Positions 31,828 to 37,402 of a stretch of DNA of 64,000 bases are shown here, in pieces (positions within the stretch are counted from its first letter, which is position 1; each line of letters begins with the position of its first letter). Below the pieces are notes generated by a model, which saw nothing but the letters and a program-made list of their open reading frames with translations, did not search any database and had not been told where the DNA came from. Source of the stretch: Bdellovibrio bacteriovorus (GTDB taxonomy: Bacteria; Bdellovibrionota; Bdellovibrionia; Bdellovibrionales; Bdellovibrionaceae). The position numbers were made by a program, and so were the translations under genes. The stretch is taken from contig NZ_LUKE01000001.1 of assembly GCF_001592735.1 (NCBI RefSeq), positions 1,399,018-1,463,017 of the forward strand, in the 5' to 3' direction.

Positions 31828-33708
31828 ATGGCTAAAACGGTTCAGAATTTTAACGCGGAAATTAAGCAACTTTTAGATATTGTTATTCACTCGCTGTATT
31901 CGCAAAAAGAGATTTTTTTGCGTGAACTTTTGTCCAATGCCTCGGACGCAATTGATAAATTAAAATTTCAATCCCTGACCAATTCTTCGATCTTACCTGC
32001 TGGCTGGGAACCCCAGATCCGCCTGGTTCCCAACAAAGAATCAAAAACCCTGAGCATTATTGATAATGGGATCGGCATGACCACGGCCGAGGTCAACGAA
32101 TTCATCGGAACGATCGCGCGTTCTGGTGCTAAAGCCTTTATGAAAATGAATGAAGAAAATAAAACTAAGCCAGAGCTTATTGGGCAGTTCGGTGTCGGTT
32201 TCTATTCAGCTTTTATGGTGGCGGACCGCGTGACTTTGCATACCCAAAAAGCCGGTGAGAATGACGGCACTGTGTGGGAATCAACAGGAGATGGAACTTA
32301 TTCAATTGATCAAGTACCACGCCCTGAAGGCACGGGCACGACCCTCACACTTCATCTTAAAGAATTTAAGAACGAGGATGAGGTTTCCGATTTCACCGAT
32401 GCGTGGGTTTTAAAATCTCTGGTAAAAAAATATTCTGACTTCATCGCCTTTCCGATCAAGATGAAAAACGACAAAGGCGAAGAAGAAACTTTGAACTCAC
32501 AAAAAGCTCTGTGGCTGCGTTCGCCCTCGGAAGTGACGGCCGAGGAACACAAAGAGTTCTATCAACATCTTAGCCATGACTGGAATGAGCCGCTTAAAAC
32601 GATTCATTATAAAGCCGAAGGCACGATGGAATTTAATGCGTTATTATATATCCCAACCAAAAAGCCTTGGAATTTTAATACGGGCGACATGGCTTACGGA
32701 TTAAGCCTTTACATTAAGCGTGTCTTTATCATGGCTGACTGCAAGGATCTTTTGCCGACGTATCTTAGATTTGTAAAAGGCCTGGTAGATAGCAGTGATC
32801 TTTCGCTGAATGTTTCCCGTGAGCTTTTGCAACAAGATCGTCAGGTTACACAAATTCGTAAAAACGTGACCACAAAAATTTTGAGCACTTTGAAAGAGCT
32901 TCTTTTAAAGGACAGATCTGCTTATGAAAACTTTTGGAATGAGTTTGGCGCAACTTTAAAAGAAGGCTTGCCCGCAGATCCAGGCAACAAAGAAAAACTT
33001 CAAGACCTTTGTTTATTTCATTCGACTCATTCAGATAAGATGACAACGCTTGAAGAATACGTCGGTCGCATGAAGAACGAACAAAAAGAAATTTTCTATA
33101 TCACGGGCGACAACTTGGCGCAGATTCGCAACAGTCCTTATTTGGAGCGATTAAATGAAAAAGGTTTTGAAGTTCTTTTACTGGTAGACACGGTCGACGA
33201 GTGGATGATCGAAGCCTTAAGAGAATATAAAGAAAAGAAACTTCAATCTATCACCAAAGAAGGCTTAGATCTGGACACGGCCGAAGAAAAGGCTCGTCAT
33301 GAAGAAGAAAAAAAGCAGTCGGAGGTCACGTTAAAGCCTGTTTTAGAAGTGATGAAAAAAACTTTGGAAAGTCAGGTTAAAGATGTCGTTATTTCGGATC
33401 GATTAACAACGACACCGGTGTGCCTTGTTTCTGCTTCGAATGATCCATCAGCGCACTTGCAAAAGCTGATGTCCCGTTTGGGACAAGAGCAGTCCATGAT
33501 GAATGCGAAACGCATTATGGAAATTAATCCTAAGCATCCGGTATTCCAAAAAATGCTTGAAGCTGGCGCCGATCAGCAAGCAAAGTGGGCTGAAATTTTA
33601 TACAACCAAGCCTTACTTACTGAAGGATCGGCCCTGCCAGATCCAGTGAAATTTTCCCACCAAATCGCCGATCTTATGATCCAGGCCGCATCAGGTGTAA
33701 AACACTGA
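31828..33708 (+). CDS. htpG: Hsp90-family molecular chaperone HtpG
   Basis: A 626-residue cytoplasmic ATP-dependent chaperone. The GHKL ATPase motifs are clear: RELLSNASDAIDKL near 30-43, DNGIGMT, and GQFGVGFYSAFMVAD. The middle domain carries NVSRELLQQDRQV with the catalytic Arg, and the C-terminal dimerisation domain ends at ASGVKH. It starts 17 bases or less after a strong AAAAAGGAG. The A of its TGA overlaps with the asparaginase ATG (TGATG). Confidence 0.97.
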   Translation: MAKTVQNFNAEIKQLLDIVIHSLYSQKEIFLRELLSNASDAIDKLKFQSLTNSSILPAGWEPQIRLVPNKESKTLSIIDNGIGMTTAEVNEFIGTIARSGAKAFMKMNEENKTKPELIGQFGVGFYSAFMVADRVTLHTQKAGENDGTVWESTGDGTYSIDQVPRPEGTGTTLTLHLKEFKNEDEVSDFTDAWVLKSLVKKYSDFIAFPIKMKNDKGEEETLNSQKALWLRSPSEVTAEEHKEFYQHLSHDWNEPLKTIHYKAEGTMEFNALLYIPTKKPWNFNTGDMAYGLSLYIKRVFIMADCKDLLPTYLRFVKGLVDSSDLSLNVSRELLQQDRQVTQIRKNVTTKILSTLKELLLKDRSAYENFWNEFGATLKEGLPADPGNKEKLQDLCLFHSTHSDKMTTLEEYVGRMKNEQKEIFYITGDNLAQIRNSPYLERLNEKGFEVLLLVDTVDEWMIEALREYKEKKLQSITKEGLDLDTAEEKARHEEEKKQSEVTLKPVLEVMKKTLESQVKDVVISDRLTTTPVCLVSASNDPSAHLQKLMSRLGQEQSMMNAKRIMEINPKHPVFQKMLEAGADQQAKWAEILYNQALLTEGSALPDPVKFSHQIADLMIQAASGVKH

Positions 33709-34670
33709 TGAAAATTGTTGTGGAACGTGGGTCCCATGTTGAATCAATGCACCAAGTTTCGTACGTGGTCATGGATCCTCAAGGAAAAATCTTAGACTCT
33801 TCAGGCGATGTTGAAGAAAAGTTTTTCCCGCGTTCCGCAATTAAGATGATTCAGGTTTTACCCTTAGTTCGGTTTAAAAGGGAACGGGGTCTTCCGTCAT
33901 CACCTCATGAATTAGCGTGTGCTTGCGCTTCCCACGCAGGTGAGAAGGTTCACATCGAGATCGTTTCTAGCTGGTTAGAACGGCTCTCACTTAAAGAGTC
34001 GCATTTGATTTGTGGGGCGCATCTTCCGTTTAATGAAACGGCCGCGAAATTCTTTATCCAAAATAATGAAGCCCCCACTCGTTTGCATAACAACTGCTCT
34101 GGTAAACATACCGGCATGCTTGAATGGGCGCGGCTTTTAAATGCGTCCGTGGAAAATTACGCGGATATCAATCATCCCGTACAACAATCCATTCGTACGG
34201 AAATGCAGACGATGGCAGAAATTAAAATGCAAAACGAAGACTGGGCGATTGATGGTTGCGGAATTCCCGCCTGGCGAATGCCGTTAAAAAATATTGCGAC
34301 AATGCTATGGCATTTTTCTTCCGAAGCGGCGATCAAGGGATCCGCTGAGGAAGAAGTGTTTCAAGCGTGCGTGCAAAATCCAGTTTTAACCGCCGGAAGT
34401 GATGAGTTCTGCACACAGGCCATGAAGCAGCTTTCAGGAGAAGTTTTTTTAAAAGTCGGCGCTGAAGGTTTTATGACCGCGATATTACCCCACCGAAAAA
34501 AAGTGATCGTCCTTAAAGTTCACGACGGAGCAGAACGAGCGTCCGAAGTGGCAATCAGCCATTTGCTGGCACGCCATGTTCCCGAAATGAAAACGGCCCT
34601 TTCCGCGTGGACAGAGCCTCCCCTTTTTAACTGGGCGGGAACGGCTGTGGGTAGGATCAAGGCGATCTAA
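33708..34670 (+). CDS. Type II (rhizobial-type) L-asparaginase
   Basis: A 320-residue protein of the Asparaginase_II family, which is unrelated to E. coli AnsA and AnsB. Family segments are the SAIKMIQVLPLV stretch, ACACASHAGEKVH, the HNNCSGKHTGML core with the zinc/catalytic Cys-Ser-Gly-Lys, and DGCGIPAW. It hydrolyses asparagine to aspartate and ammonia in the cytoplasm; there is no signal peptide. It is coupled to htpG by TGATG. Amino acid catabolism fits a predator fed on prey protein (inference). Its stop overlaps the stop of the gene on the other strand by four bases. Confidence 0.9.
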   Translation: MKIVVERGSHVESMHQVSYVVMDPQGKILDSSGDVEEKFFPRSAIKMIQVLPLVRFKRERGLPSSPHELACACASHAGEKVHIEIVSSWLERLSLKESHLICGAHLPFNETAAKFFIQNNEAPTRLHNNCSGKHTGMLEWARLLNASVENYADINHPVQQSIRTEMQTMAEIKMQNEDWAIDGCGIPAWRMPLKNIATMLWHFSSEAAIKGSAEEEVFQACVQNPVLTAGSDEFCTQAMKQLSGEVFLKVGAEGFMTAILPHRKKVIVLKVHDGAERASEVAISHLLARHVPEMKTALSAWTEPPLFNWAGTAVGRIKAI

Positions 34671-37402
34671 AGACGATTTGCAATGAAATCTTTGATCTCC
34701 GGATTCTTGAATTCAGTCGCTAATGCTTTTATTTTTTGTACTTTTTCTAGATCACTCATCCCTAAGCCGAGGTGAAAATACATCAAGGTTTGTGTAAGGC
34801 CAAAGGAGCTAAATTTTTTTTCTTTGAGGTTCTTTTTGATTAAACCATAAAAATCAGATCCGCCGCTGTATTTTAAACACTCGTCGCTCGCCAAATTCTT
34901 TTCCACGAACTCTAGGCAGATAGACGCGGCCTTTTCCGGAGCTTGGAATAATAGGGCATCAAAAAGAAAGTTTTGACCATCGTCCGGTACGATATTCTTT
35001 CGTAGTTCTGTATTTATCGTATCGTCATTTAGATCAACCATGCGTAAAATTCCACTGGCGGTATAACGATCTTTACTCACAGCCAGCTTTACATCCGTAT
35101 TTAGCTTTTTACGATCTTTATACATTTTGAGAATCGTTTCGAAGCTGTACCGCGGTGAAGATTGCCGGGCGAAAAGTAAAATCGTGTAAAGTTCTTTAAC
35201 GCTTGAAACCGTTTCTTTAAACTGAACCATATTCTTGGTAATTTCAAGATTTGGAAAGTCTGATGCTTCAAAGAGCGGAAGACGATTGTCAAAATCAGCC
35301 AAGAGATAATTAAAAAGTCCCATAGTGACGGACTTTCTTTCGGCGAGATTGCCAGACTCTGCGCAATTAGAAAAATAGTTCTGGGCGGTTATTTGAACGA
35401 CCATAACGTTATCTTCTTTAATGCGATTTACCACCGCCTTAGACAAGACAGAACAATACTCTGAAGCGGAGCGAGTTCGCTTCAAGATTTCAAAATATTT
35501 CTTCAAAGCATCGAAGGAGATATTTAATTGTTCGTTATTGATGACCTTAGTGCGAATATTGTTAATAACCTCTGCCGAAATTCGGCTCGATTTATCTAAT
35601 GACTTGATAGCGACATCTCCACCAGGGGTGACCACAAATGAGAAATCAACCAGGGCTAACTGAACCTGTGGGTCGGCGAATACGGGATTGTTATTATCAA
35701 TATTTCTTTCTAAAGTTTCTGCAACAGGGCTGCCAAGGCTGTCTGGTTTTTTCATAGCTCTGTTGATCAAATCTAAAATCATCGGCGCGTCTAAGCGGAC
35801 GTAACAGCCGATATTCGCTAAATATTGCGTGTCTTCAATGAGGCCCGTATTTAGATTTTTGACCGGGATTAAAGGTCGGTGTTCCTCAGTTTCACAAAGA
35901 ATTTGATTTTGAAATTCACTAAGAATTTTTGAAGCATCATTCAGCTTCAGTTCTTTGTAAAGTCGTCCCGATCCGGATTCAGGGATCGCGATATTTCGGA
36001 AAAGCAAATTGTAAGCTCCAGACATTCGGCTATCATTTTTCGCGAACTCTTGAAATTCTTTAAGGGCCTTAAAAAAGAACCCCTCATTATAAAGTGCTAA
36101 GCAGCTCATTGCCTCAACAAACTCTTCGTCTTTCCAGCGTGCGGCCGGTATGGTTTTTTCATCAATGCTAACTTTCAACGAATTGGACTGAGCATAAGAA
36201 CAGATGAAATCTTTTTGATCGATACTAAAATCGCGATCCAAAGGCCCTAAAAGGTAAGAGACGATTTTTTGAGAATATTCTTCCTTCGGAAGCCAGCCAA
36301 AAAAATTCATAAATGTTAAAATTTTAAGCTGGACTGACAGCATCGAAGTGTCGCGTTTTTCGATGATGTGATGAAGCGAAGCCTTCAGGCGCTTGTCTCC
36401 CATGATCTTTTCTAAGGGCTCAAACTCTTTGTCTTCCCACTCATGCCCGCTGGCCGTGACTTGGCTCAGCCATTCGTTGATGGCCGGTAGGAACTGAAAT
36501 GATTTTTCGGATCTTAAAGAAGAGGCCACCCAGTTTGCTTTTTGGGTCAAACTGACTTTAGGATTATTCAGATAGCACACGGGCATTTGATCGCCATTAA
36601 ATTCTTTGGCGCCAGTGGACTGAGTTAAAGCAGTGCCCTTAAGCGCTTTTCCGAAAAGTTCATTAAACCCGCTGTTAAGATCATTGAGACCTTTTAAAGA
36701 ATAGTACTGCTGGGGATTGATGGATTTAAAATAGCTTGTTAATAGCGGCTTTACGGTTTTCCCGGAAGGACCCACAGAATCAAAGCCATAGATTCTTGAA
36801 GCTCCACGGAAAACTCGGCGCATGCGGTCTGCGTAAGAATCGCCTAATGGGGAATAGCGGAATGCGACGATTTGCTCAGCCTGATCAGCGCTAAAGCCAT
36901 CCTGCAAGAGCACGGCACGGTATTGTTCAGGCGTGCGGTGATCGCGACTTTTGCCAGCTAAGGTGTTGCAACCAAACAAATAGACCTCTTTAGGTTTTTG
37001 CAAAACCCCCGAACAAGCAGAGTCGCAGGACTTTTTTTCAAGTTCTTCCATGGAAAGATTCAATCCTGAGCTACCAAAAAAGCTGCCACCGAAATGGCCT
37101 GAAATCAGAAGCACATCGCAGCTGATCTTTTGTCGGCAGGCGCGACCTAAAAATTGCGCCTCATCGGCGACAGCTTGGGTTTCTATCGTGTCGGTTTCAT
37201 CTTCCGGAAGCTCTGTCAGCTCAATGAAATTGGCGTTTTTTTCACCGATGTGCTTTTTGAAAAGTTCAATTTCATCATTGGAATTGATCGTGATGCTGCA
37301 TATGTTGGGTTTGCCATTAGAAACGGCTGCAGCCCCAAAAGCATAAGATTGAAAGGCCAAGCATACGAACGCAACCATCGAAAAATAGAATTGTTTTTTC
37401 AT
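34667..37402 (-). CDS. Large exported protein with a caspase/CHAT-like His-Cys pair (putative clan CD peptidase)
   Basis: A 911-residue secreted protein starting at MKKQFYFSM with a signal peptide cut near the FGAAA segment; a frame ten codons longer exists. After the N-terminus comes a beta strand and DVLLISGHFGG with His103, then 40 residues later EVYLFGCNTLAG with Cys145. A hydrophobic strand ending in His plus Gly, then a second strand ending in a Cys, is the layout of clan CD cysteine peptidases (caspases, CHAT, gingipains). IYGFDSVGPSG near 220 could be a substrate-pocket segment. The remaining 650 residues are helical and Cys-poor, possibly an array of helical repeats. No family name is known to me. 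The catalytic assignment is an inference from the motifs. Confidence 0.7.
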   Translation of the reverse strand: MKKQFYFSMVAFVCLAFQSYAFGAAAVSNGKPNICSITINSNDEIELFKKHIGEKNANFIELTELPEDETDTIETQAVADEAQFLGRACRQKISCDVLLISGHFGGSFFGSSGLNLSMEELEKKSCDSACSGVLQKPKEVYLFGCNTLAGKSRDHRTPEQYRAVLLQDGFSADQAEQIVAFRYSPLGDSYADRMRRVFRGASRIYGFDSVGPSGKTVKPLLTSYFKSINPQQYYSLKGLNDLNSGFNELFGKALKGTALTQSTGAKEFNGDQMPVCYLNNPKVSLTQKANWVASSLRSEKSFQFLPAINEWLSQVTASGHEWEDKEFEPLEKIMGDKRLKASLHHIIEKRDTSMLSVQLKILTFMNFFGWLPKEEYSQKIVSYLLGPLDRDFSIDQKDFICSYAQSNSLKVSIDEKTIPAARWKDEEFVEAMSCLALYNEGFFFKALKEFQEFAKNDSRMSGAYNLLFRNIAIPESGSGRLYKELKLNDASKILSEFQNQILCETEEHRPLIPVKNLNTGLIEDTQYLANIGCYVRLDAPMILDLINRAMKKPDSLGSPVAETLERNIDNNNPVFADPQVQLALVDFSFVVTPGGDVAIKSLDKSSRISAEVINNIRTKVINNEQLNISFDALKKYFEILKRTRSASEYCSVLSKAVVNRIKEDNVMVVQITAQNYFSNCAESGNLAERKSVTMGLFNYLLADFDNRLPLFEASDFPNLEITKNMVQFKETVSSVKELYTILLFARQSSPRYSFETILKMYKDRKKLNTDVKLAVSKDRYTASGILRMVDLNDDTINTELRKNIVPDDGQNFLFDALLFQAPEKAASICLEFVEKNLASDECLKYSGGSDFYGLIKKNLKEKKFSSFGLTQTLMYFHLGLGMSDLEKVQKIKALATEFKNPEIKDFIANRL

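Follow-up and report, generated by a model that had tools for sequence, protein, structure and literature searches.

Work on bacterial relatives of the caspases has mostly dealt with cytoplasmic proteins of defence or cell death, and the gingipains (C25) and clostripain and iotapain (C11) are exported bacterial peptidases of the same clan, clan CD. The CHAT proteins (PF12770; SAVED-CHAT, TPR-CHAT/Csx29 and HetF) pair the caspase-like fold with a helical region. Legumain (C13) and PIGK of the GPI transamidase both work outside the cytosol, and prolegumain carries a helical C-terminal region behind its catalytic domain, the LSAM-type cap being a legumain feature. Separase (C50), a cytosolic or nuclear protein of eukaryotes, combines a caspase-fold protease with a large helical solenoid. 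The textbook motif of clan CD is HG...AC, and that of the metacaspases, which belong with the orthocaspases and caspases to C14, is YSGHG.

Here we analyse a gene within a 64,000-nucleotide stretch of Bdellovibrio bacteriovorus DNA (the window), which in our judgement probably encodes a Sec-exported cysteine endopeptidase with a caspase-like fold, belonging to a family that has not been described. A first interpretation made from the letters alone, which we refer to as the sequence-only reading, had proposed a large exported protein with a His-Cys layout and a helical tail, and the open frame, the signal peptide, His103 and Cys145 and an all-helix model of the tail bear this out. It had also presented a secreted protein of this type as new, but in view of the exported peptidases of families C11 and C25, secretion by itself is no novelty.

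Gene and export signal

The coordinates of the gene and its features are collected in Table 1. The 911-residue protein starts with MKKQFYFSMVAFVCLAFQSYAFGA, a plain Sec-type signal sequence as read by eye, and a similar signal-peptide-like start is found in nearly all of its relatives. In a crude hydrophobicity scan, nearly all family members had no membrane segment past the signal peptide; the exceptions were two N-terminally extended frames with a membrane-type stretch, which is probably the signal peptide itself. There is a further in-frame ATG 30 bases upstream of the one given in Table 1.

Table 1 Features of the gene and its protein product in the window
Feature	Residues	Coordinates	Strand	Basis or remark
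Whole gene, exported caspase-fold protein	911 aa	34667..37402	(-)	Open frame, ATG at 37402
Putative signal peptide	~1-24	37331..37402	(-)	Cleavage site by eye; relatives alike
Predicted caspase-fold (clan CD-like) domain	~32-265	36608..37309	(-)	AF2, Foldseek, VIA-align
Strand and His motif, DVLLISGHF	96-104	37091..37117	(-)	His103 at 37094-37096
Strand and Cys motif, EVYLFGCNTL	139-148	36959..36988	(-)	Cys145 at 36968-36970
Six more conserved cysteines	35, 89, 95, 126, 130, 276	36575..37300	(-)	Presence/absence in ~150 relatives
Helical segment	263-470	35993..36616	(-)	pLDDT mostly 80-96, <70 from ~460
Divergent helical tail, solenoid-like	471-911	34670..35992	(-)	All helix, pLDDT ~40-89

The gene is convergent with an asparaginase II gene (33708-34670), the two overlapping tail to tail by 4 bases at 34667-34670, and a glyoxalase-like frame adjoins it. 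No conserved operon partner was found in 80 family loci. One apparent cluster of neighbours (c1) was rejected because, judged from its overlap, it seems to consist of long antisense frames that run across the tandem genes of GC-rich Betaproteobacteria.

Predicted structure

An AlphaFold2 model of residues 24-310, built from 106 sequences, reached a pLDDT of 92.8 and a pTM of 0.90. Strands 97-101 and 139-143 of this model are consecutive strands of the core, and His103 and Cys145 each follow two residues after their strand, His103 lying within DVLLISGHFGG and Cys145 within EVYLFGCNTLAG, at a spacing of 42 residues. At the level of the fold, the domain thus shows what is typical of clan CD: a caspase-like alpha-beta-alpha core, with the His after one core strand and the Cys after the next. 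A Foldseek search of the PDB placed caspase-9 first (6.6e-4, TM 0.38-0.44), followed mostly by caspases 7, 8 and 3, with TM-scores that are modest overall (0.27-0.44). Realignment with VIA-align, which ranked Foldseek's own candidates and is therefore a second look at the same list, gave a list whose top 34 rows all belong to peptidases of clan CD or to other relatives with a caspase fold. The best of these was SAVED-CHAT 8tl0 (Z 10.3, rmsd 3.1, 158 aligned), and GPI transamidase (Z 9.1), legumain (8.9), the asparaginyl ligases (8.3-8.8), the C11 peptidase iotapain (8.7) and the gingipain RgpB (8.1) also scored well, with separase (7.3) and metacaspase and caspases (about 7) lower down; values of Z 8-10 are only moderately above background. 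A viral fold library gave weak matches only.

Flavodoxin-like reductases, response regulators and a TIR domain appear among the weaker Foldseek matches, which is what one might expect if the fold assignment were wrong and the domain were some other Rossmann-like three-layer domain with a chance His-Cys pair. We regard this as very improbable, however, since clan CD members rank top in two methods and both clan-defining positions are occupied by the conserved His and Cys. The caspase-like core had been suggested by the sequence-only reading, with structure prediction named beforehand as the check, and the AlphaFold2 model, Foldseek and VIA-align support it as a predicted clan CD core.

From about residue 265 onwards the protein is helical, over about 640 residues, and a full-length model has a mean pLDDT of 77. 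The segment up to about residue 440 is confidently modelled and homologous in many relatives; for residues 471-911, sequence similarity was detected only in the three closest relatives. In a comparison of this far tail with known structures HEAT/ARM solenoids lead, with a Z near 10 that is not significant for helical proteins, and a search with repeat models gave no HEAT/ARM match in the window protein itself. HEAT_2 matches are found in 16 of 58 relatives (for example at locus L063), and because of these a HEAT/ARM-like solenoid is the likely reading of the modelled tail.

Comparison with known families

Searches with the Pfam, NCBIfam, PHROGs and PADLOC models gave no match to the window protein. 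The CHAT model (PF12770) gave no match for it either, and matched one of 106 family members at E 0.04, while the Pfam models for C14, C13, C11 and C25 gave no match. Profile-profile comparisons with CHAT, C14, C13 and C11 gave a probability under 1% in each case, in what is a limited test, as the CHAT set was homogeneous and the C11 set comprised two rows. Sequence searches of the PDB turned up no match that was both significant and convincing: caspase-2 appeared gapless at E 1.5 with the His off by one, and the ASH1L bromodomain, which appeared at 0.017 with a 40-row profile, was gone with a 106-row profile. A sample of 59 Bdellovibrionota genomes likewise yielded no CHAT. Because no library model matches and the profile comparisons fail, the protein appears, as far as sequence can tell, to represent a separate and apparently undescribed family, in agreement with what the sequence-only reading had supposed. 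The label "caspase/CHAT-like" given there holds for the fold, where SAVED-CHAT is the best match, and fails for CHAT membership, which sequence profiles do not support.

The resemblance to CHAT extends to the Cys motif, where GCNTLA in the window protein is similar to ACNT/ACET, and to the pairing with a helical region. In contrast to CHAT, the window protein is exported, has putative disulfides, and carries its catalytic domain at the N terminus, and its family has H[FYH] where CHAT has HG. Legumain and PIGK share the fold and work outside the cytosol, but show no sequence or profile match; the C11 and C25 peptidases are likewise exported bacterial members of the clan, but there is no sequence match, the tail differs, and no prodomain was recognised in the window protein. 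The C14 peptidases include the best Foldseek matches, and the "SGH" of the window protein resembles the metacaspase motif, whereas there is no Pfam match, the profile comparison fails, and no S1 pocket was identified in the window protein. Separase offers a parallel for a caspase-fold protease with a solenoid, although its domain order is opposite and it shows no sequence match.

The prominence of GPI transamidase and the asparaginyl ligases among the closest folds, together with dyad surroundings unlike those of classic peptidases, would also suit a caspase-fold enzyme that uses its His-Cys pair for ligation or transamidation, or for anchoring, as these enzymes do. Legumain-type enzymes hydrolyse too, however, so that the fold does not discriminate between the two activities, and none of the 80 loci provided a conserved neighbour gene as a possible substrate; we consider such an enzyme unlikely.

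The His-Cys pair and further cysteines

Among relatives collected by plain protein similarity, in which no motif patterns were used, the His and the Cys are both present in 43 of 43. The widest alignment has 151 rows, 22 of which were retrieved with a profile from 20 very divergent loci, and here the His is kept in 147/151 and the Cys in 148/151, counts which, as the rows are related, do not represent independent events. A pattern-based scan of contigs used patterns that include the His and Cys motifs, and is biased for counts of the dyad. Because the pair is retained to this extent in relatives, the layout is real and not a matter of chance, and the sequence-only reading, which had named homologues without a conserved His or Cys as a refuting finding, has held up in this check. 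The exceptions are the second copy at locus L120, with a gap at both positions, the protein at L082, with Glu in place of the His, and two divergent paralogues of a single genome (G359; L193 and L194), which have lost His and Cys together and are candidate pseudoenzymes.

Within the 151 rows, the family motif is H[FYH]...GC, the residue after the His being mostly F, Y or H and the Cys being preceded by Gly. The "His-Gly" of the sequence-only reading is therefore not literal, the His of the window protein being followed by Phe ("HF", then GG). Of the HG-spacer-AC signature the family keeps the hydrophobic blocks, with the Gly after the His and the Ala before the Cys replaced; HG...AC is a common signature and is not demanded by the clan CD fold.

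Six further cysteines are conserved and pair off by co-variation. Among about 150 relatives, positions 35 and 95 are both Cys in 144, with no case of a single one and 1 of neither; the corresponding numbers are 130, 1 and 14 for 89-130, and 124, 1 and 5 for 126-276, the rows again being related and the counts not independent events. This pattern suggests that the three pairs form disulfides, consistent with export. Cys145 has no co-varying partner, and would thus be a free cysteine, as expected for the nucleophile of an exported protein.

The non-canonical motif might alternatively indicate a non-catalytic scaffold or binding protein with a caspase fold, in which the conserved residues are structural. 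The long HEAT-like tail suggests a scaffold as well, and the two paralogues lacking the dyad and the one with Glu for His indicate that loss of the dyad need not abolish the fold. Nevertheless, that both residues are near-invariant in highly diverged relatives and are lost jointly, and that Cys145 stays unpaired among paired cysteines, is hard to explain without chemistry, and a purely structural role therefore seems rather unlikely to us.

Proposed activity

Against an exported cysteine endopeptidase, which remains our preferred reading, we counted the replaced HG/AC residues, the Glu for His at L082, the modest fold scores and the lack of a profile link to known peptidases. If it is correct, the protein would be exported through its Sec signal, after which the domain would be locked by three disulfides. 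His103 would activate Cys145, which would then attack a peptide bond in target proteins located in the periplasm, at the outer surface or in the surroundings, in a predator possibly within the prey. The helical solenoid could bind a substrate or partner, or cap the active site in the manner of the helical region at the C terminus of prolegumain, and could provide specificity or control of cleavage. Proteolytic activity, disulfides, substrate, location and the role of the tail are all inferred here. One could speculate further, with somewhat less than even confidence, that this is a new peptidase family of disulfide-locked exported caspase-like enzymes with HEAT-type solenoids, acting as specific, regulated processing proteases outside the cytoplasm (in Bdellovibrio possibly inside prey), as periplasmic counterparts of separase or Craspase. 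With a cysteine framework of its own, a solenoid-like tail and no model in the libraries searched, a widespread exported family of this kind would bring the caspase fold into what happens in the periplasm of Bdellovibrionota and Betaproteobacteria. The gene also offers a candidate protease that can be tested directly, in a predator amenable to culture and gene knockout.

Distribution and evolution of the family

By plain protein similarity, relatives are found in 33 of the 66 genomes that belong to the taxonomic family and, within the genus, in 17 of 24 including that of the window, leaving seven in which no copy was detectable. A profile search found relatives in 95 of 369 Bdellovibrionota genomes, and the pattern-based contig scan added the Betaproteobacteria Ramlibacter, Piscinibacter, Rubrivivax, Aquabacterium and Aromatoleum. 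The family is present in predatory bacteria as well as in ordinary bacteria of soil and water. The sequence-only reading had spoken of a protease in a predator, but the family is no predator trait: no copy was detectable in the seven genomes of the genus, and many Betaproteobacteria that are not known to be predators carry one. This argues against a role in predation only, and the link to predation, itself an inferred role, is weak.

In genome G003, which we take to be that of B. bacteriovorus HD100, the homologue (L176:8777-10600, at about 3.116 Mb of G003:C1) lies between murC and ftsQ-ftsA-ftsZ, the neighbours being named by eye from sequence, and chemoreceptor and universal stress protein genes are found nearby. 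FtsZ and FtsA are Bd3189 and Bd3190 (PMC12546842). Given this position beside ftsQ-ftsA-ftsZ, the homologue would probably have a number near Bd3194. Among the papers searched, we found none naming the gene and nothing on Bdellovibrio in connection with a caspase-like or cysteine protease, and searching by the likely gene number gave nothing on the homologue.

The host genome of the window contains a second copy (G000:C2:185019-187025, L002), a 936-aa open frame with 42% identity over residues 17-685. Members of the family in Ramlibacter and Piscinibacter often form tandem pairs. Tandem homologous pairs in which both copies have the dyad occur at L091, L096, L104, L113, L114, L119, L122 and L124 and in other Betaproteobacteria, and L116 has three genes. 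In a quick tree with several long branches, the betaproteobacterial copies form one group, within which first and second tandem copies fall mostly into two subgroups, and this separation suggests that the duplication is old and has been retained. The first tandem copy of Ramlibacter montanisoli (G369:C1:900897-901737, L094) has its match split between two segments that lie in different frames, and is probably frameshifted. At L047:4980-6116, the caspase-like domain is in frame with the end of a histidine-kinase ATPase domain; we did not accept this as a true architecture, as it has neither a membrane segment nor a phosphoacceptor region and may be a decayed fusion or a MAG artefact. One Bdellovibrionota genome carries three divergent members one after another (L177, G192:C43:13000-23000).
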